The notes below the pieces were generated by a model, which worked only from the letters and a program-made list of their open reading frames with translations, was not told where the DNA came from and made no database searches. Source: Ancylobacter sp. TS-1 (GTDB lineage: Bacteria; Pseudomonadota; Alphaproteobacteria; Rhizobiales; Xanthobacteraceae). From it: DNA of 64,000 nucleotides. The DNA lies in contig NZ_CP045144.1 in the NCBI RefSeq assembly GCF_009223885.1, positions 62,001 to 126,000 of the forward strand, read 5' to 3'. A program made the translations under genes and the position numbers. Every line of letters starts with the position of its first letter. Positions within the stretch are counted from its first letter, which is position 1. Positions 15,348 to 57,055 of the stretch are shown one piece after another.

Positions 15348-15533
15348 GGACGGCCTCGCTGATGGACGCGGGCAGTATCGGCGTGCCGTGCAGGGGTGCG
15401 GATAAAATTCCTACAACATGACCGATGCAGCGGGCTGGGGTTCATCGACCTGCGTCGTTTGAATGTTCATGATTTGTTCTTGATTGCTTGTGAGCGAGGC
15501 GCTAGGCTTAAATTCCTTTCACGGAGATAAGCC

Positions 15534-15905
15534 ATGCCGACGATCCGCACTCCGGCCGCCCACCCGGCGGGCCGGCAGGCCTGCCTCGTTGCCGCCCGCC
15601 TTGCCGCCACGGCGACCGGGCTGCCGCTGGACAGGGTTCTGCATCCGCGCCGTCTCGACCGCCGCAGCGCGTCGGCGCGGGCGCTCGCCATGTATCTCGC
15701 CCATGTCGGTCTCGGCCTACCGATGACGCGGGTCGCCGCCGATTTCGGCCGTCACCGCTCCACGGTCGCCCATGCCTGCCGCCGGATCGAGGAGCGCCGC
15801 GAGGTCGCCGGCTGGGACCGGCGGGTCGCCGCGCTGGAGGAGACGGCGCGGGCGGAGACGGCGCAGGCGGAGGCCGGCCGGGCGATGGGAGGCGGGCATG
15901 GTTGA
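15534..15905 (+). CDS. DnaA C-terminal-type helix-turn-helix protein
   Basis: 123 residues. The middle (residues ~45-90: SARALAMYLAHVGLGLPMTRVAADFGRHRSTVAHACRRIEE) matches the DnaA domain IV HTH that reads DnaA boxes, with the HRSTV.HA signature. There is no AAA+ domain, so it cannot initiate replication by itself. It may be a DNA-binding regulator or compete for DnaA boxes; both are inference. GGAGA precedes ATG 15534. The end overlaps the DUF6456 gene start by 8 bases, indicating a coupled pair. Confidence 0.88.
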   Translation: MPTIRTPAAHPAGRQACLVAARLAATATGLPLDRVLHPRRLDRRSASARALAMYLAHVGLGLPMTRVAADFGRHRSTVAHACRRIEERREVAGWDRRVAALEETARAETAQAEAGRAMGGGHG

Positions 15906-16470
15906 GCGTCGCACGGCCCGGCGCCGGACCGAGTGCGTCGAGGTCGAGATCGAGGGCGTGCGCAGCCTCGTCGCGGTGGACATGGAGGAGAGCCCGCTCG
16001 GCTGGCTGGCCCGGCGCCGCGACCGCGAGGGCCGCGCGCTGGTGACGGCGACGCAGTTCGTCGCCGGGGAGCGGCTGCGGGCGGACTTCACCCGCGCCGG
16101 GCTGACGCCGCGCCTCACCAGCGACTGGAGCGGGGTGGCGCGCAGCGGCCGGCGCGGGCCGGCGGGGCTGTCGCTGCCGGAGGCGGCTTTGGCGGCGCGC
16201 CAGCGCCTGTCGCGCGCGCTCGACGCCGCGGGGCCGGAATTCGCCGGGCTGCTGCTGGATGTGTGCTGTTTCCTGAAGGGCCTCGAACAGCTCGAACGCG
16301 AGCGCGGCTGGCCGGCGCGCGCCGCCAAGGTGGTGCTGTCGCTGGCGCTCGACAGGCTCGCCCGCCATTACGGGCTCGCGGAAGCGGCGCGCGGCCCGGC
16401 GCGGGGGCGCCTGCGGGCCTGGAAGGCCCCGGAGGGACCGGACGGTGCGGAGACCGGCGCCGGCGGCTAG
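15898..16470 (+). CDS. DUF6456 domain protein
   Basis: 190 residues of a family found in Rhizobiales beside DnaA-HTH genes. The conserved core reads SPLGWLARRRDREGRALV, AGERLRADFTRAGLTPRLTSDW and a C-terminal block DVCCFLKGLEQLERERGWPARAAKVVLSLALDRLARHYG. The last part resembles an HTH-like fold, so DNA binding is possible. ATG 15898 overlaps the previous stop. The stop TAG shares the tetranucleotide CTAG with the stop of the convergent sufE gene. Confidence 0.85.
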   Translation: MVERRTARRRTECVEVEIEGVRSLVAVDMEESPLGWLARRRDREGRALVTATQFVAGERLRADFTRAGLTPRLTSDWSGVARSGRRGPAGLSLPEAALAARQRLSRALDAAGPEFAGLLLDVCCFLKGLEQLERERGWPARAAKVVLSLALDRLARHYGLAEAARGPARGRLRAWKAPEGPDGAETGAGG

Positions 16471-35372: not shown

Positions 35373-35387
35373 TTAGGAAAATAGTCC

Positions 35388-35416
35388 TTGACAGCGTGAC
35401 GCTGGCGGGGTAGGTT
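35388..35416 (+). promoter_or_regulatory. Strong sigma-70-type promoter facing the GTA cluster, with palindromic spacer
   Basis: TTGACA (35388-35393), a 17-base spacer, and TAGGTT (35411-35416). A perfect inverted repeat CAGCGT-G-ACGCTG (35392-35404) overlaps the -35 end and the spacer, an ideal position for a repressor. It is the first recognisable promoter upstream of terS and probably drives the cluster or the small transcript at 35423. Confidence 0.7.
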
Positions 35417-35422
35417 TTCTTC

Positions 35423-35515
35423 ATGCTCCACAACTGCGTCGGAAGGCCGTGAGGTCACGATGCCCCGAGGCCCCCGCAGGGGCGTCGTTTCGGCCGGCCT
35501 TCGCGCCGGCTTTTT
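35423..35515 (+). ncRNA. Structured leader or small RNA upstream of terS
   Basis: From the predicted start, the transcript contains a 9-bp stem CGATGCCCC/GGGGCGTCG (35458-35487) and then a terminator GCCGGC-CTTCGC-GCCGGC-TTTTT (35493-35515), all before the terS start at 35545. Either a ~93-nt small RNA ends here or the leader attenuates GTA transcription. A nine-codon reading frame (35423-35452) precedes the stems; its use is doubtful. No known RNA family is recognised. Confidence 0.5.
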
Positions 35516-35544
35516 CGTTTCCGGGTTCGATCTGCGGAGGTGGA

Positions 35545-49383: not shown

Positions 49384-52300
49384 ATGGCCACACTCATTCT
49401 TGGCGCCCTTGGCGGGGCGGTCGGCGGGGCTCTGCTCGGGCCGGTCGGCGCGCTGGCCGGGCGGGCGCTCGGCGCGCTCGGCGGCTCAGCCGTCGACAGC
49501 CTCGTGCTCAACCCCGGCCGCCGGGCCGAGGGGCCGCGCCTCGCCGAATTCGGCACCATGACCTCCACCGAGGGGGCGGCGATGCCGCGCCTCTATGGCC
49601 GCGCCCGGCTTTCCGGCCAGGTGATCTGGGCGGCGCCGGTGGAGGAGGTGATCTCCACCCAGACGCAGGCGTCCGGCGGCAAGGGCGGCACACTCGGTGG
49701 CAGTGCCGGCGCCGTCACCACCACCAGCTACAGCTATTTCGGCAGCTTCGCGGTCGGGCTGTGCGAGGGGCCGGTGACGCGGATCGGCCGCATCTGGGCG
49801 GACGGGCGCCCGCTCGACACGCGCGGACGCCTGGTGCGGCGGCACCTCGGCGGCGAGGACCAGCTTCCCGATCCGCTGATCGAGGCGCGCGTGCCCGGCG
49901 CGCCGGCCTATCGCGGGCTGGCCTATCTCGTGTTCGAGCGGCTGGCGCTGGCCCCGTTCGGCAACCGGCTGCCGCAGATTTCGGTCGAGGTGGAGCGCGC
50001 GGTCGGCACGCTGGAGCGCGAGCTGCGCGCGGTGACGCTGATCCCCGGCGCCACCGAATTCGGCTACGACCCGCGCGAGGTGGTGCGGGTGGACCGGCCC
50101 GGCGTCTACCAGCCGGAAAACCGGCATGTCGCCACCCATGCCAGCGACTTTTCCGCCGCGCTCGACCAGCTTCTCGCCACCTGCCCGAACATCGAGCGCG
50201 TGGCGCTGGTGGTGAGCTGGTTCGGCGACGATCTGCGGGCCGGCGTCTGCGCGATCCGGCCCGGCGTCGAGCGGCGGGTGAAGCCGACGCAGATGCTGCC
50301 CTTTCCCGTCGTCTGGCGGGTGGCCGGGCAGACCCGCGAGAGTGCCACCCTCGTCAGTCAGCACGAGGGGCGCCCGGCCTATGGCGGCACGCCCTCCGAC
50401 GACAGCGTGGTCGAGGCGATCAAGGCGCTGAAGGCGCGCGGGCTGGCGGTGACGCTCTATCCCTTCGTGATGATGGACATTCCCGCCGGCAACACGCGGC
50501 CCGACCCGTGGAGCGGGGAGCCCGGCCAGCCGGCGTACCCGTGGCGCGGGCGCATCACCTGCCACCCCGCGCCCGGCCGGCCCGGCTCGCCGGACGGCAC
50601 GGGCGAGGCCGGCGCGCAGCTCGCCGCCCTGTTCGGCGCGGCCGAGGCGGGCGATTTCGCGATTGCCGGCGGGCGGGTGGTCTATTCCGGCCCGGAGGAA
50701 TGGTCGCTGCGCCGCATGGTGCTGCACTATGCCCGCCTCTCGGTGCTGGCGGGCGGGGTGGAGGCGATCCTCGTCGGCTCGGAAATGGCGGCGCTGACCC
50801 GTGTGCGCGCGGCGCCCGGCGTCTATCCCGCCGCCGCCGCCTTCGCCGCGCTGGCGGGGCAGGTGAAGACCATGGTCGGCGCGGGAACCCGGGTCGGCTA
50901 TGCCGCCGACTGGGCCGAATATGGCGCCCATGTGCGCGATGGCGGGGCGGAGGTTCGCTTCCCGCTCGATCCGCTCTGGGCGGCGCCCGCGCTCGATTTC
51001 ATCGGCATCGACTGGTACCCGCCGCTCGCCGATTGGCGCGACGGCGACGGCCATCTCGACGCGCAGGACCATGAGAGCCTGCACGATCCCGCCTATCTCG
51101 CCGGCAATCTCGCCGGCGGTGAGGCCTTCGACTGGTACTACCCGGACGAGGATGCGCGCGCCGCGCAGGCGCGCCTGCCGATCACCGACGGGGCTTATGG
51201 CGAGCCCTGGCTGTTTCGCCAGAAGGATGTTGCGGGCTGGTGGAGCCATGCCCATCACGAGCGCGTCGGCGGCGTGCGGCAGGCGGCGCCGACCGCCTGG
51301 GTGCCGGGCTCAAAGCCGGTGCGTCTCACCGAGATCGGCTGCCCGGCGGTCGACAAGGGCGCCAACCGGCCGAGCGTGTTCCCCGACGCCAAATCCGCCG
51401 ATGGCGGCCTGCCGCCCTTCTCCAGCGGGCGGCGCGACGACCTGATGCAGCGCCGGCTGATCGAGGCGACGCTGGCGGGCTTCGCCAGTTCGCTTGCGCT
51501 CAACCCGGCCGCGCCCGCGCTGCCCGGCGGGCGGATGGTGGAGCCGGCGTCGATCTTCGCCTGGAGCTGGGACGCGCGGCCCTTCCCGGTCTTTCCGCTC
51601 GCCCGCGAAGTGTGGGCGGACGGAGCCAACTGGGACACCGGCCACTGGCTGAGCGGCCGGCTCGGCGCCGCCCCGCTGGCCGAGCTGACCGCCGCGCTGG
51701 CGGCCGATTTCGGGGTCGACCAGATCGACACGGCGACGCTTTCCGGTGTCGTCGACGGCTATGTGGTGGACCGGCCGATGACCGCACGCGCCGCGCTGGA
51801 GCCGCTGGCGCAGGCCTTCGCCTTCGATCTCGTCGAGCGCGGCGAGGGGCTGGCGCTGCGCCGTCGCGGCGGGCGGGTGCGCGCGCTTCTCACCGATGAG
51901 GACATCGCCGCCGGCGAGGGCATCGCCCCGCCTCGCCTCGTGCGGGCCGCCGAGGGCGAACTCCCCGCCAGCGCCACGCTCGGCTTCGTCGACGGCAATG
52001 GCGACTACCGCCGCGCCACCGCCTCCTCGCGCCGGCTCGCCGGGGCGGCGCAGGCGGCAACCGGGCTCGACGTCGCCATGGTGACCGATCCCGGCTTCGC
52101 GGCGGGGCTGGCCGACCGCTTTCTTCAGGATATCTGGGCCGGGCGCGAGACGGCGAGCCTAACGCTGCCGCCCTCGCATCTGGCGCTGGAGCCGGGCGAC
52201 CTTGTGCGGCTGGACCGCGACGGGCGCGCGCGGCTTCTGGAGATCACCGCCATCGAGGACCGCGAGGCGCGCCTCGTGAGCGCGCGCAGCATCGACCCCG

Positions 52301-53295
52301 CCGTGTTCGACCTTGCCGTGCAGGCGGGCCGGCCGGTCTCGCCCGAACTGCCGGCGGGCGAGGGACCGCCGCAGGTGCAGCTTCTCGCCCTGCCGCTGCC
52401 GGGCGGGGAGGGCGCGCCGGTGCTGGCGTGGCTCGGCGCCTTCCTCGCGCCGTGGCCGGGCAGCCTCGCCGTGTGGCGGGCGGTGGACGGGGCGAGCTTC
52501 GAGCGCGTCGCCACCATCCCTGCGCCGGCGGTGACGGGCGAAACGTTGACCGATCTGCCGCCCGGCCCGTGCTGGCGCTGGAACCGGACATCGCTCGACA
52601 TCGAACTCGACGGCGGGCTGATCGCCGCCGCCAGCGAGGAGGCGGTGCTCGGCGGGGCGAACGCGCTGGCGCTGATCGCGCCCTCCGGGGAGTTGGAGGC
52701 GATCCAGTTCGCCGAGGCCGAGCTGACCGGCGCGCGGCGCTGGCGACTTTCCGGCCTGCTGCGCGGCCAGCTCGGCACCGAGGCCCGCGCCGCGATGGCC
52801 TGGCCGGCGGGCACGCGGCTGATGCGGATCGACGCCAATCTCATTCCCGTCGCCGGCGGGCTCGACATGCTCGGGCGCGCGCTGGTGTTGCGCGTCGGCC
52901 GCGCCGACCGCGACCATGGCGACCCCGCCGTCGCCGAGATCGCCGCCGTCGCCGGCCCGCAGGCGCTGCGCCCGCTCGCCCCCGTGCATGCCCGCGCCCG
53001 CCGCACGCCGGAAGGCGTGACGATCGGCTGGACGCGGCGAACGCGGACGGGCGGGGATTCCTGGGATCTGGTCGAGGTGCCGCTCGGCGAGAGCGGCGAA
53101 GCCTATGAGGTCGCCATCCTCGACGGGGGAGAGGCGGTGCGCCGCCTCGCCGCTTCCGGCCCGTCCGTCACCTATGCGGCGGCCGACGAGATCGCCGATT
53201 TCGGCGCCGCCCGGCCCTTCCTCGATGTCCGCATCGTCCAGCTTTCCGCCGAGGTCGGCGCCGGGGCGGCGCTGGAGGCGCGGCTGGCGACCTGA
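49384..53295 (+). CDS. GTA 'megatron' tail tip protein with TIM-barrel domain (g15)
   Basis: 1303 residues, the largest protein of the cluster. A Gly/Ala-rich N-terminal helix (LILGALGGAVGGALLGPVGALAGRALG) may insert in membranes. Domains follow: a tail-tip region (~30-420), a glycoside-hydrolase-type TIM barrel (~430-730, with FIGIDWYPPLADW near 540), and a phage-tail-3/FN-like C-terminus with LSGLLRGQLGTEAR. In RcGTA it forms the needle that contacts the recipient cell wall and guides DNA. Confidence 0.96.
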   Translation: MATLILGALGGAVGGALLGPVGALAGRALGALGGSAVDSLVLNPGRRAEGPRLAEFGTMTSTEGAAMPRLYGRARLSGQVIWAAPVEEVISTQTQASGGKGGTLGGSAGAVTTTSYSYFGSFAVGLCEGPVTRIGRIWADGRPLDTRGRLVRRHLGGEDQLPDPLIEARVPGAPAYRGLAYLVFERLALAPFGNRLPQISVEVERAVGTLERELRAVTLIPGATEFGYDPREVVRVDRPGVYQPENRHVATHASDFSAALDQLLATCPNIERVALVVSWFGDDLRAGVCAIRPGVERRVKPTQMLPFPVVWRVAGQTRESATLVSQHEGRPAYGGTPSDDSVVEAIKALKARGLAVTLYPFVMMDIPAGNTRPDPWSGEPGQPAYPWRGRITCHPAPGRPGSPDGTGEAGAQLAALFGAAEAGDFAIAGGRVVYSGPEEWSLRRMVLHYARLSVLAGGVEAILVGSEMAALTRVRAAPGVYPAAAAFAALAGQVKTMVGAGTRVGYAADWAEYGAHVRDGGAEVRFPLDPLWAAPALDFIGIDWYPPLADWRDGDGHLDAQDHESLHDPAYLAGNLAGGEAFDWYYPDEDARAAQARLPITDGAYGEPWLFRQKDVAGWWSHAHHERVGGVRQAAPTAWVPGSKPVRLTEIGCPAVDKGANRPSVFPDAKSADGGLPPFSSGRRDDLMQRRLIEATLAGFASSLALNPAAPALPGGRMVEPASIFAWSWDARPFPVFPLAREVWADGANWDTGHWLSGRLGAAPLAELTAALAADFGVDQIDTATLSGVVDGYVVDRPMTARAALEPLAQAFAFDLVERGEGLALRRRGGRVRALLTDEDIAAGEGIAPPRLVRAAEGELPASATLGFVDGNGDYRRATASSRRLAGAAQAATGLDVAMVTDPGFAAGLADRFLQDIWAGRETASLTLPPSHLALEPGDLVRLDRDGRARLLEITAIEDREARLVSARSIDPAVFDLAVQAGRPVSPELPAGEGPPQVQLLALPLPGGEGAPVLAWLGAFLAPWPGSLAVWRAVDGASFERVATIPAPAVTGETLTDLPPGPCWRWNRTSLDIELDGGLIAAASEEAVLGGANALALIAPSGELEAIQFAEAELTGARRWRLSGLLRGQLGTEARAAMAWPAGTRLMRIDANLIPVAGGLDMLGRALVLRVGRADRDHGDPAVAEIAAVAGPQALRPLAPVHARARRTPEGVTIGWTRRTRTGGDSWDLVEVPLGESGEAYEVAILDGGEAVRRLAASGPSVTYAAADEIADFGAARPFLDVRIVQLSAEVGAGAALEARLAT

Positions 53296-55228: not shown

Positions 55229-55726
55229 CTATTCGGCCGGGCCGGGGGCTTCGGACGGCGCCGGGCGCGGGGCGGGTGCCGCCGGCCGGGACAGGATGCG
55301 GGGCGCCGGGGCGGGCGCTGTCGATGATCCCGCCGCCGCGTCCGTGCCGGCGCGCGCGGCCATCGTCGCCGGCAGCCGGGGGCCGATGATCGTCGACGGC
55401 CGGGGCGCGGGTGCACGCGGGGTCAGGACCGGGCCGGCAGCGATGCGGCTGCGCGCTTCCTCGACCACGGTCGCCATGCGCTCGAAGCGGCGCAGGCGGG
55501 TGATCTCGCCATTGAGCCGGTCCAGCTCGTCGCCGATGGCGCGGCAGATGGCGCGGTAGCTTTCCTGGGTCAGCCGGTCGCGCATGTAGCCGAGGGTGCG
55601 GGCCTCGCCGCGCAGCGCAATCGGCGCGGCGGCGAGCAGCGCCTCGGCCTGCACCTGTCCCGAGCTGCGGCGGGCATCGTCGAAGATGCTCCTCAGATCG
55701 TCGACGAGCTTGTCATCCCTGGCCAT
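55229..55726 (-). CDS. Coiled-coil protein with Pro/Ala-rich tail, function unknown
   Basis: 165 residues. Helical N-terminus (DDKLVDDLRSIFDDARRSSG, LTQESYRAICRAIGDELDRLNGEITRLRRFERMATVVEEAR) and a disordered Ala/Pro tail. It lies on the opposite strand between fibre and lysis genes. GGGAGG lies upstream of ATG 55726. It shares the regulatory gap with the divergent lysis genes, so it may be under the same CtrA/DnaA control. Confidence 0.7.
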   Translation of the reverse strand: MARDDKLVDDLRSIFDDARRSSGQVQAEALLAAAPIALRGEARTLGYMRDRLTQESYRAICRAIGDELDRLNGEITRLRRFERMATVVEEARSRIAAGPVLTPRAPAPRPSTIIGPRLPATMAARAGTDAAAGSSTAPAPAPRILSRPAAPAPRPAPSEAPGPAE

Positions 55727-55826
55727 GCCGAGCGGACCTCCCTGATCGCGGAACCCACTGAACGGTGAGGACAAAATCGTCCGGCAAACTTCGCTGCGGC
55801 GCAACCGTGTCCCGGTAGTGTCGTGG

Positions 55827-55857
55827 TTAATGAATCGTTAACGCCCGGTTATCCACA
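55827..55857. promoter_or_regulatory. Perfect CtrA box and perfect DnaA box upstream of the lysis genes
   Basis: TTAATGAATCGTTAA (55827-55841) fits the CtrA consensus TTAA-N7-TTAA exactly. TTATCCACA (55849-55857), eight bases further, is a consensus DnaA box. They lie 17-47 bases before the endolysin start and about 100-130 bases before the divergent coiled-coil gene. Both sites match exactly in high-GC DNA, so chance is unlikely. CtrA control of GTA release is known in Rhodobacter; use here is inference. Confidence 0.75.
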
Positions 55858-55873
55858 GTTGCGGGAGCTTACC

Positions 55874-56662
55874 ATGACCGCGTCGAGCTTCGACGAGGCG
55901 ATCAGGCGCGTCCTCGTGCATGAGGGCGGCTATGCCGACCATCCCGCCGATCCCGGCGGGGCGACCATGAAGGGCATCACCCAGCGGGTCTATGACGGCT
56001 GGCGCTGCCGGCGCGGCGAGGAGGTGCGCGCCGTGCGCCTGATCGCGCCGGGCGAGGTCGCGGCGATCTATCGCCGGCAGTACTGGGAAGCCGTGCGCGC
56101 CGACGAACTGCCGGCCGGCGTCGATTATTGCGTGTTCGACGCGGCGGTGCATTCCGGCCCGGTGCAGGCGGCGAAATGGCTCCAGCGCGGGCTCGGCGTG
56201 GCGGCCGACGGGCAGGTCGGCGAGGCGACGCTGGCCGCGCTCGCCGGGGCGGATGCCGCCGCGCTCATCGAGGCGGTCTGCGAGCGCCGGCTCGCCATGC
56301 TGCGCGCGCTGAGGACCTTCCCGACCTTCGGCGCCGGATGGACCCGGCGCGTGAGCGAGGTGCGCGCGGCCGCCAGGGCGATGACGCGCGGCGGCGCACC
56401 CGCGCAGGTTGCAGAGGGGGCCGGCGGCAAGGCGCGGCCCGCCGATACGCGGCTCTCGCGCACCCCGGAGGGGGCGGGCGGGCTGATCGCCGGGGCGGGC
56501 ACGCTCGGCGCCATGGTGGCCGAGCAGGCCGACCGGCTGGCCCCGCTCGCCGCCTATGCCGGCCCGCTGAAATGGCTGTTCGCCGCGCTGGTGCTGGCCG
56601 GCGTCGGGCTGACGCTGCACGGCGCGCTCCGGCGCATCGCGGCCGGGGAGGGCGCGCGATGA
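55874..56662 (+). CDS. GH108 endolysin with C-terminal membrane helix
   Basis: 262 residues. GH108 N-acetylmuramidase: catalytic Glu in VLVHEGGYADHPADPGGATMKGIT, then YWEAVRADELP and the C-terminal peptidoglycan-binding-like LQRGLGVAADGQVGEATLAAL. A TM helix near the end (WLFAALVLAGVGLTLHGAL) could tether the enzyme. It would degrade the host wall for GTA release. GGGAG precedes ATG 55874. It is ATGA-coupled to the inner-membrane spanin gene. Confidence 0.92.
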   Translation: MTASSFDEAIRRVLVHEGGYADHPADPGGATMKGITQRVYDGWRCRRGEEVRAVRLIAPGEVAAIYRRQYWEAVRADELPAGVDYCVFDAAVHSGPVQAAKWLQRGLGVAADGQVGEATLAALAGADAAALIEAVCERRLAMLRALRTFPTFGAGWTRRVSEVRAAARAMTRGGAPAQVAEGAGGKARPADTRLSRTPEGAGGLIAGAGTLGAMVAEQADRLAPLAAYAGPLKWLFAALVLAGVGLTLHGALRRIAAGEGAR

Positions 56663-56931
56663 CGGCGCTGCTCGGCGTGCTGACAAGCCTGCTGTCGACC
56701 CTGCTGTCGAGCCCGCTCGGGCGGGCCGGCGTGCTGGCGCTGGCCGCGCTGGCGGCGGCCGGCTGGCTTTATCTCAAGGGACGCAGCGAGGGCCGCGAGG
56801 CCTGCCGGCTGGAGGGAGAACGCGATGTCGTGGAGACGATCGAGCGCGCGGATCGCGCGCGTGCTGACGCTGACCGGCGCAATGGCGTCGATGGCCGGCT
56901 GCGCGACGACGACGCCTTCCGCCGCGACTAG
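56659..56931 (+). CDS. Rz-like inner-membrane spanin (i-spanin)
   Basis: 90 residues: one N-terminal TM helix (GRAGVLALAALAAAGWLYL) and a charged periplasmic coiled-coil (RDVVETIERADRARADADRR), the layout of i-spanins that fuse inner and outer membranes in the last step of lysis. ATGA overlap with the endolysin gene. An o-spanin gene is nested in its second half in another frame, as in lambda Rz/Rz1. A holin role for the TM helix cannot be excluded. Confidence 0.8.
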   Translation: MTALLGVLTSLLSTLLSSPLGRAGVLALAALAAAGWLYLKGRSEGREACRLEGERDVVETIERADRARADADRRNGVDGRLRDDDAFRRD

Positions 56932-57055
56932 GGGCGCGTGCGGCGCCTTCCGGCCCATAAGCTGGGCGCGCGCCGACACCGACCCGACCATCCGGCAGGT
57001 GAAGGCGCACAATGCGGTAGGTCGGGAACTGTGCGGGTGGAGGGGCGGGAAATAG
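56825..57055 (+). CDS. Rz1-like outer-membrane lipoprotein spanin, nested
   Basis: 76 residues. Signal peptide with lipobox MAGC at residues 23-26 (SMAGCATTTP), so the mature lipoprotein is about 51 residues; C-terminal TIRQVKAHNAVGRELCGW is typical of alphaproteobacterial Rz1-like proteins. Starts inside the i-spanin gene in a +1 frame, with GGAGGGAG five bases before ATG 56825. Last gene of the GTA lysis module. Confidence 0.82.
   Translation: MSWRRSSARIARVLTLTGAMASMAGCATTTPSAATRGACGAFRPISWARADTDPTIRQVKAHNAVGRELCGWRGGK

Follow-up and report, generated by a model that had tools for sequence, protein, structure and literature searches.

A conserved CtrA-like box upstream of candidate lysis genes of a gene transfer agent in Ancylobacter

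In Rhodobacter capsulatus, expression of the endolysin of its gene transfer agent (GTA), RcGTA, is reported to require both the cell-cycle regulator CtrA and the activator GafA; GafA binding is placed at the lysis promoter, and CtrA binding at that of gafA (PMC6363796). According to the available text of a second report, phosphorylated CtrA and GafA act jointly on the late genes, among them those for lysis, putative CtrA half-sites are placed in the lysis, head-spike and tail-fibre promoters, and RcGTA also needs LexA, by a mechanism described there as unresolved and seemingly through CckA (PMC9638019). Direct CtrA control of GTA lysis is thus an existing proposal. We analyzed here a CtrA-like box, TTAA-N7-TTAA (TTAATGAATCGTTAA, positions 55827..55841), that begins 47 nucleotides (nt) 5' of the ATG of a GH108 endolysin gene beside the GTA cluster of Ancylobacter sp. 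TS-1. Coordinates are those of the window, the whole 64-kb stretch analyzed (G000:C1:62001-126000; guanine plus cytosine content, GC, 71%), taken from a single-contig genome of 3.96 Mb whose kin, by protein and contig names, are Ancylobacter and Starkeya.

Other described systems offer further points of comparison. For Caulobacter, the parts of the reports at hand state that the CtrA phosphorelay regulates GTA synthesis in Rhodobacter and not in Caulobacter (PMC9632790), that RogA and XRE proteins repress gafYZ (PMC9632790, PMC10688885) and that GafYZ bring about antitermination (PMC11150451). In phages, the available text on a "lytic deferment" proposes that host CtrA times lysis, with CtrA sites in phage promoter regions and CtrA binding observed by gel shift (PMC9437464).

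A parallel can be drawn with RcGTA, since the Ancylobacter locus also has an RcGTA-type cluster and a GafA-type activator, and in R. capsulatus the endolysin is CtrA-dependent. As far as the available descriptions go, the two differ in where CtrA sites are found. R. capsulatus has one in the gafA promoter, conserved in an alignment with 14 species, whereas TTAA-N7-TTAA is absent from 27 of the 28 gafY promoters studied here; its lysis promoter holds putative half-sites, whereas that of the Ancylobacter locus analyzed here holds a full two-half-site box. The lysis genes differ as well, being rcc00555/6 in R. capsulatus and GH108 with Rz/Rz1-like open reading frames (ORFs) beside the GTA cluster in Ancylobacter. 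The CtrA-controlled phages are described with dense clusters of CtrA sites in large intergenic regions (PMC9437464), in contrast to the single site in a domesticated GTA seen here. With the Caulobacter agent, CcGTA, the locus shares the split GafY/GafZ activator, a palindrome between the -35 and -10 hexamers and a terminator near the start of the GTA promoter; unlike in Ancylobacter, no holin-endolysin genes are reported as found for CcGTA, and lysis is by LypABC (PMC9632790, PMC11150451, PMC13236601, in their available parts). The split gafA of Hyphomicrobiales, as far as PMC9638019 is available, has the same arrangement of a small DnaA-like gene, a DUF6456 gene and sufE, in the same order; no SOS box is described there in that text.

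What is new here is the other order, the conserved full box, the different lysis genes and the activator without a box. The initial annotation of this DNA knew of no description of such gating. This holds for the full-box version, which differs from those in the available texts, but CtrA-dependent GTA lysis has been reported in R. capsulatus (PMC6363796, PMC9638019). Among the matches listed from the open-access literature, supplements aside, the accessible text reports neither such a box in lysis promoters of Ancylobacter or Rhizobiales nor an SOS box at gafYZ.

Conservation of the CtrA-like box

The initial annotation had placed two perfect motifs, the CtrA box and a DnaA box (TTATCCACA, 55849..55857, + strand), immediately before the lysis genes. 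Both are exact, and neither has a second exact copy anywhere in the window, whichever strand is read. They lie in a 147-base-pair (bp) intergenic region (55727..55873; 59% GC versus 71% for the window) between two divergent genes, GH108 and a gene on the minus strand starting at 55726; that the region is shared with this divergent gene was absent from the annotation. The pair had also been held improbable by chance, with expectations of 0.03 and 0.1 per window. Dinucleotide shuffles give expectations of 0.00 TTAA-N7-TTAA and 0.05 TTATCCACA per window. The whole genome contains 7 TTAA-N7-TTAA against 8 copies of the reversed control motif, or 0.11 per 64 kb, and 3 TTATCCACA against 25 for its control, or 0.05 per 64 kb. 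Within the intergenic region itself about 4e-4 CtrA boxes and 5e-4 DnaA boxes are expected, both figures being post hoc. As there is no enrichment over the control, rarity in the window proves little, and position and conservation have to decide.

Comparison of related loci indicates that the CtrA-like box is a real, conserved and lineage-restricted element, found in part of one genus, and that it is probably functional. We took as orthologues GH108 matches with E < 1e-100, present in 20 of 30 same-genus genomes, our own included, and excluded 14 places with weaker paralogues (E 1e-79 to 3e-26) and five short C-terminal matches. In the 300 nt upstream of GH108, TTAA-N7-TTAA is present at 10 of these 20 loci, 47 nt from the GH108 start here and in A. 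koreensis, which is the nearest named relative by both GH108 and the divergent protein, and 56-57 nt from it in the eight others. Type strains that have the box include those of A. aquaticus and A. polymorphus, whereas A. novellus and A. moscoviensis are box-less. All eight TTAA columns are invariant among the ten loci, as are two of the seven spacer columns, the other five being variable. Six paralogue loci (L025 and L030-L034) were scanned as well, and neither the CtrA-like nor the DnaA box was present in any. An alignment of 13 intergenic regions further places the box in a conserved core of about 46 bp, which reads GCAACCGTG-N4-GGTAG-N8-TTAA-N7-TTAA in this genome (55801..55846, + strand). 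The genome has no second exact copy of this core (GCAACCGTG..GGTAG), and matches with two mismatches occur at the control level.

The box-bearing loci form two groups whose intergenic DNA is 54-57% identical, 43-46% of the positions being different in the three between-group pairs compared. On the GH108 tree the box falls in two supported groups joined by a backbone without resolution; its distribution takes two changes on the tree as drawn, of which supported branches force one, and in 75 of 500 label shuffles no more are required. In a wider set of named GH108 loci (80 kept of 138 found, 300 nt scanned) the box occurs nine times and the control motif never. Seven of the nine belong to the Ancylobacter group (one being titled Xanthobacteraceae bacterium 501b) and overlap the genus set, and two are AT-rich metagenome-assembled genomes (MAGs) of Bacteroidales. 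The box is absent at GH108 genes that have a GTA tail protein upstream in Azorhizobium and in MAGs of Methylobacterium and Rhizobiales PAR1, and also in the Rhizobiales MAG 32-66-11, where only the downstream neighbors are common.

The spacer of the box holds a GANTC (GAATC) site of the CcrM type at 55832-55836, shared with A. koreensis alone. GANTC is found elsewhere in 10 of the other 11 comparable intergenic regions, A. dichloromethanicus having none. We do not argue for methylation control, because GANTC lies within the box only here and in A. koreensis.

The genome encodes 12 Trans_reg_C proteins. One of them (L237), chosen by what we take to be the CtrA motif, is identified as CtrA, its closest PDB entry being 4qpj, "Cell cycle response regulator CtrA", at 3e-65 over residues 1-118. 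As a positive control we used rcdA, whose product, the DUF1465 protein, was identified as RcdA through PDB 3ctw: 27 of 30 genomes have TTAA-N7-TTAA at most 400 nt upstream of it, and none of the 30 has the control motif there. The available text of PMC2877005 predicts CtrA control of rcdA to be conserved in a cluster that includes Rhizobiales. Since the genome encodes CtrA and the motif stands before a predicted CtrA target, rcdA, in most of the genomes, the TTAA pair is a credible CtrA box. Among the further exact sites of the genome, four neighbor genes for a penicillin-binding protein, a nucleoside diphosphate kinase, an outer-membrane barrel and a CpsB/CapC protein, and another has no clear gene beside it.

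The lysis genes and the divergent gene

The initial annotation had read the genes behind the box as an endolysin-spanin module, and this reading is plausible. The GH108 endolysin gene (55874..56662, + strand) encodes a protein with a PG_binding_3 domain (Pfam PF05838 at 1.1e-27 and PF09374 at 1.3e-7) that matches PHROG 315, endolysin, at 5e-52. By inspection, ATG 55874 is the best placement of its start, with a GGAG ribosome site, and the C-terminal end has a hydrophobic segment. It is followed by a candidate Rz-like inner-membrane spanin (56659..56931, + strand), proposed from sequence and layout, and by an overlapping Rz1-like ORF with a lipobox-like MAGC (56825..57055, + strand), recognized by inspection. 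The layout is thus Rz/Rz1-like; the Rz-like ORF has no family match in Pfam or PHROG.

The assignment of the locus to a GTA is anchored by the tail protein encoded upstream of the lysis genes (49384..53295, + strand), with domain matches to GTA_TIM, Phage-tail_3 and Rcc01698_C; a DUF2793 gene also stands among the GTA genes upstream of GH108. The cluster has the terminase, the GTA_TIM tail protein and the GafA-type activator of the RcGTA type, to which it is assigned by its genes. The tail protein lies upstream of GH108 in 18 of 19 relatives, the exception being L048 of genome G016. At L048, gp14, gp15, DUF2793 and p101 were not found, and a terminase-side gene and GH108 lie about 5.5 kb apart on one contig; the GTA cluster has possibly shrunken there.

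The divergent gene (55229..55726, minus strand) encodes an orphan protein of 165 amino acids, known here from Ancylobacter/Starkeya and metagenome proteins only, for which Pfam and PHROG gave no family match. It has 32 relatives among 5.8 billion proteins, and the 10 that carry an organism label are each from Ancylobacter or Starkeya. In an alignment of 22 of these 32 proteins, the N-terminal half is conserved and is followed by a low-complexity Ala/Pro tail with AE at the end. The gene is present in 13 of the 30 genomes, always beside GH108. No convincing homologue was found away from the lysis locus, so that the box could not be detached in this way from the lysis genes; six weak order-level matches outside the genus (397 genomes, E 5e-5 to 9e-4, with only 9 candidates scored in most genomes) were unconvincing when translated.

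Proposed direct CtrA control and its alternatives

We propose that the 147 bp between the two genes form a promoter region with a genuine CtrA box in its conserved core, through which CtrA would directly control transcription of the GH108 endolysin and the spanin candidates, and possibly of the divergent orphan gene as well. It is the reading towards which we lean, with a confidence that is little better than even. What was observed are the motifs and how far they are conserved, the gene for CtrA, the control at rcdA and the layout of the genes; that CtrA binds, whether it activates or represses, and that it acts on GH108 and not on the divergent gene are inferred.

Several observations weigh against this proposal. 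Half of the orthologous loci (10 of 20) are without the box, three of these having the same divergent layout. The motif is not enriched in the genus, with 331 sites against 358 control sites in the 30 genomes (6-16 and 5-27 per genome, respectively). Conservation extends past the box into the rest of the core, and when an eight-column mask shaped like the box is slid along the alignment, all its columns are invariant at 3 of 133 offsets; CtrA may thus be neither the sole nor the main reader of this core. With regard to the control gene, A. koreensis, which has the box at its lysis locus, is among the three genomes without one at rcdA, and RcdA is called absent in Xanthobacter in the available text of PMC2877005, so that the control is not family-wide. 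Moreover, the box occurs at 10 of the 13 loci with the divergent gene and at none of the seven without it (Fisher 0.003, a value that ignores kinship). Finally, even the best -35/-10 pairs of this genome are poor, and the top one (7/12) is directed away from GH108; the core-promoter scan does not decide the direction here.

Because the box is confined to loci with the divergent gene, it may act on this gene, on the lysis genes or on the two together. The reading of the initial annotation is partly supported: its CtrA half is borne out by the recurrence of the box at half of the orthologous loci, but the box may equally belong to the divergent gene. One could assume that it serves only the latter (55229-55726), the lysis genes being transcribed by read-through of the GTA operon, with antitermination of the GafZ type, or from another promoter. 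The distance of the box to the divergent start (-104 to -115) is about as constant as that to GH108, the best -35/-10 pair of this genome faces the divergent gene, and antitermination by GafYZ is known in Caulobacter from the part of PMC11150451 at hand. However, the best pair faces GH108, with a TTAACA half-site as the -35, in five of the eight genomes of the larger box group (a simple scan, with no control). In addition, among the seven loci that lack the divergent gene, three have GH108 about 30-80 nt behind the match to the tail gene (p291), with no box. This closeness suggests that it is transcribed there together with the GTA genes, and the box may mark loci where the lysis genes needed their own promoter. 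Absence of the box where GH108 directly trails the tail gene is expected if it belongs to a stand-alone promoter; since these three loci have hardly any separate promoter, the association with the divergent gene would be expected either way. Exclusive service to the divergent gene is, in our opinion, possible, but unlikely. Another hypothesis is that the TTAA pair is part of some other conserved promoter or operator element that resembles a CtrA site, as the lack of genome-wide enrichment and the extension of the core past the box would allow. However, invariant half-sites around a variable spacer are the pattern of a two-half-site operator, and the motif stands at rcdA in nearly all the genomes; we find this hypothesis quite improbable.

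The initial annotation had also proposed that DnaA, and with it the replication state, gates lysis jointly with CtrA. In favor of such a dual gate, the perfect TTATCCACA is only a few bases from the CtrA-like box, and exact DnaA boxes are rare, with 3 in 3.96 Mb and a chance of about 5e-4 in this region. However, this estimate is post hoc, and some such match is expected among a few thousand intergenic regions. In addition, TTATCCACA is present at only one of the 20 orthologous loci, that of this genome; it is missing even from A. koreensis, and degenerate forms (the Caulobacter DnaA consensus and TTATNCACA) were found in none of the 12 other intergenic regions facing the divergent gene. Under the refuting condition set by the initial annotation, a lack of conservation before orthologous lysis genes, the DnaA claim fails, and the CtrA claim holds at half of the loci. 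DnaA as a co-regulator was rejected on the grounds that the box is private to this genome, with no degenerate forms in relatives; we regard joint control as highly improbable and the match as probably a coincidence. Among the 80 named GH108 loci the DnaA box occurs once, in a Desulfobacteraceae MAG. The first four bases of TTATCCACA, 11 bp past the start of the second TTAA, also correspond to a third CtrA half-site with one mismatch; in the nine remaining loci with a box, neither TTAT nor TTAA stands at this place. The other TTATCCACA sites of the genome are at G000:C1:365271 and 2731561 (L054 and L055), one of them near a gene that reads as rho. The rho gene is often close to oriC.

A last alternative would be that TTATCCACA is read by GafY, which has a DnaA-like DNA-binding domain, and not by DnaA. 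A GafY-like protein with a Bac_DnaA_C domain is indeed encoded in the window, and a form of the box with one mismatch, TTATCCGCA, precedes gafY at 15397-15405 in a conserved block. However, the recognition stretch of the protein, presumably made of base-contacting residues, differs (GRHRSTV versus GRDHTTV). At the lysis promoter the match shows no conservation, TTATNCACA is in none of 10 GTA promoter regions, and the sequence that does recur before gafY, GG-N7-TCCT, is missing from all 10 lysis regions with a box. We give almost no credence to this idea.

Proposed separate inputs to GTA production and release

Together with direct CtrA control of the lysis genes, we propose that particle production would be switched on elsewhere in the window, by GafYZ. 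The GafY-like activator (15534..15905, + strand) has a domain like domain IV of DnaA (Bac_DnaA_C, PF08299 at 5.7e-10; PDB 1j1v, E 0.0012). It is followed by a GafZ-like DUF6456 protein (15898..16470, + strand; PF20057 at 2e-48, start codon by inspection) and then by sufE. DUF6456 is present in 28 of the 30 genus genomes and, among 14 controls, in Caulobacter alone. The sole TTAA-N7-TTAA at a gafY locus (genome G011) is about 20 nt before gafY and overlaps a conserved TTAAATTCCTT block.

An SOS-box-like GTTC-N7-GTTC precedes gafY at 15465..15479 (+ strand). Of 28 genomes, 16 have the motif before gafY, at a position that varies little, and none has the control motif there. These counts and those of the palindrome below cover all 28 loci; two of them, L199 and L201, had no gafY match, so that the absence of a motif there may stem from misplacement of the locus. 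The genome has 65 such SOS-like sites against 30 for the control, two of them in the window. A lone match could hence be due to chance, and its conservation is the argument. In this genome the motif also stands 5' of lexA and ssb, as read by eye (neighbors were inspected in this way for 7 of the 65 matches). The site suggests LexA control of GTA induction via gafYZ.

A palindrome, (T/G)(A/C)GG-N7-TCCT, precedes gafY in 22 of 28 genomes; the reversed motif does so in 4 of 28, and variants with spacings of 6 or 8 in 1 of 28 each. It lies at 15398-15413, 15503-15518 and 35374-35389; within the window its TAGG-N7-TCCT form is confined to the region before gafY and to the GTA promoter, where it adjoins TTGACA-N17-TAGGTT (35388-35416, by inspection), with the palindrome CAGCGTGACGCTG between the hexamers. 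The shared palindrome is a candidate GafY or RogA site. A terminator-like hairpin with a T-run, also identified by inspection, follows at about 35495-35517, 5' of the first GTA gene; palindrome and hairpin here resemble the GafZ element and terminator of Caulobacter, as far as these are described in the available text of PMC11150451. The alignments behind these comparisons comprised 13 of 28 genomes for the gafY promoter and, for the GTA promoter, 10 of the 28 genomes with a match.

The putative promoter of gafYZ would thus combine an SOS-box-like site with a palindrome shared with the GTA promoter, and particle release would need a second input, dependent on CtrA. In sequence terms these inputs are separate, since the 13 lysis regions are without the SOS motif and only one of them, at the box-less L010, has the palindrome. 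A tentative extension would be a GTA with two keys, in which release of LexA from the SOS box of gafYZ arms production and CtrA, at the box of the lysis promoter, times bursting. We consider this scheme rather doubtful, yet worth stating: if it were true, the entry point of CtrA, which in Rhodobacterales is the activator gene, would have shifted to the exit step. The SOS-box-like site also bears on how DNA damage reaches a GTA, a question reported as unresolved for Rhodobacter in the available part of PMC9638019. A conserved full box beside the lysis genes in culturable Ancylobacter species, some of them naturally without the box, would make direct CtrA control of release testable. It bears on how domesticated phage particles get out without killing the population.

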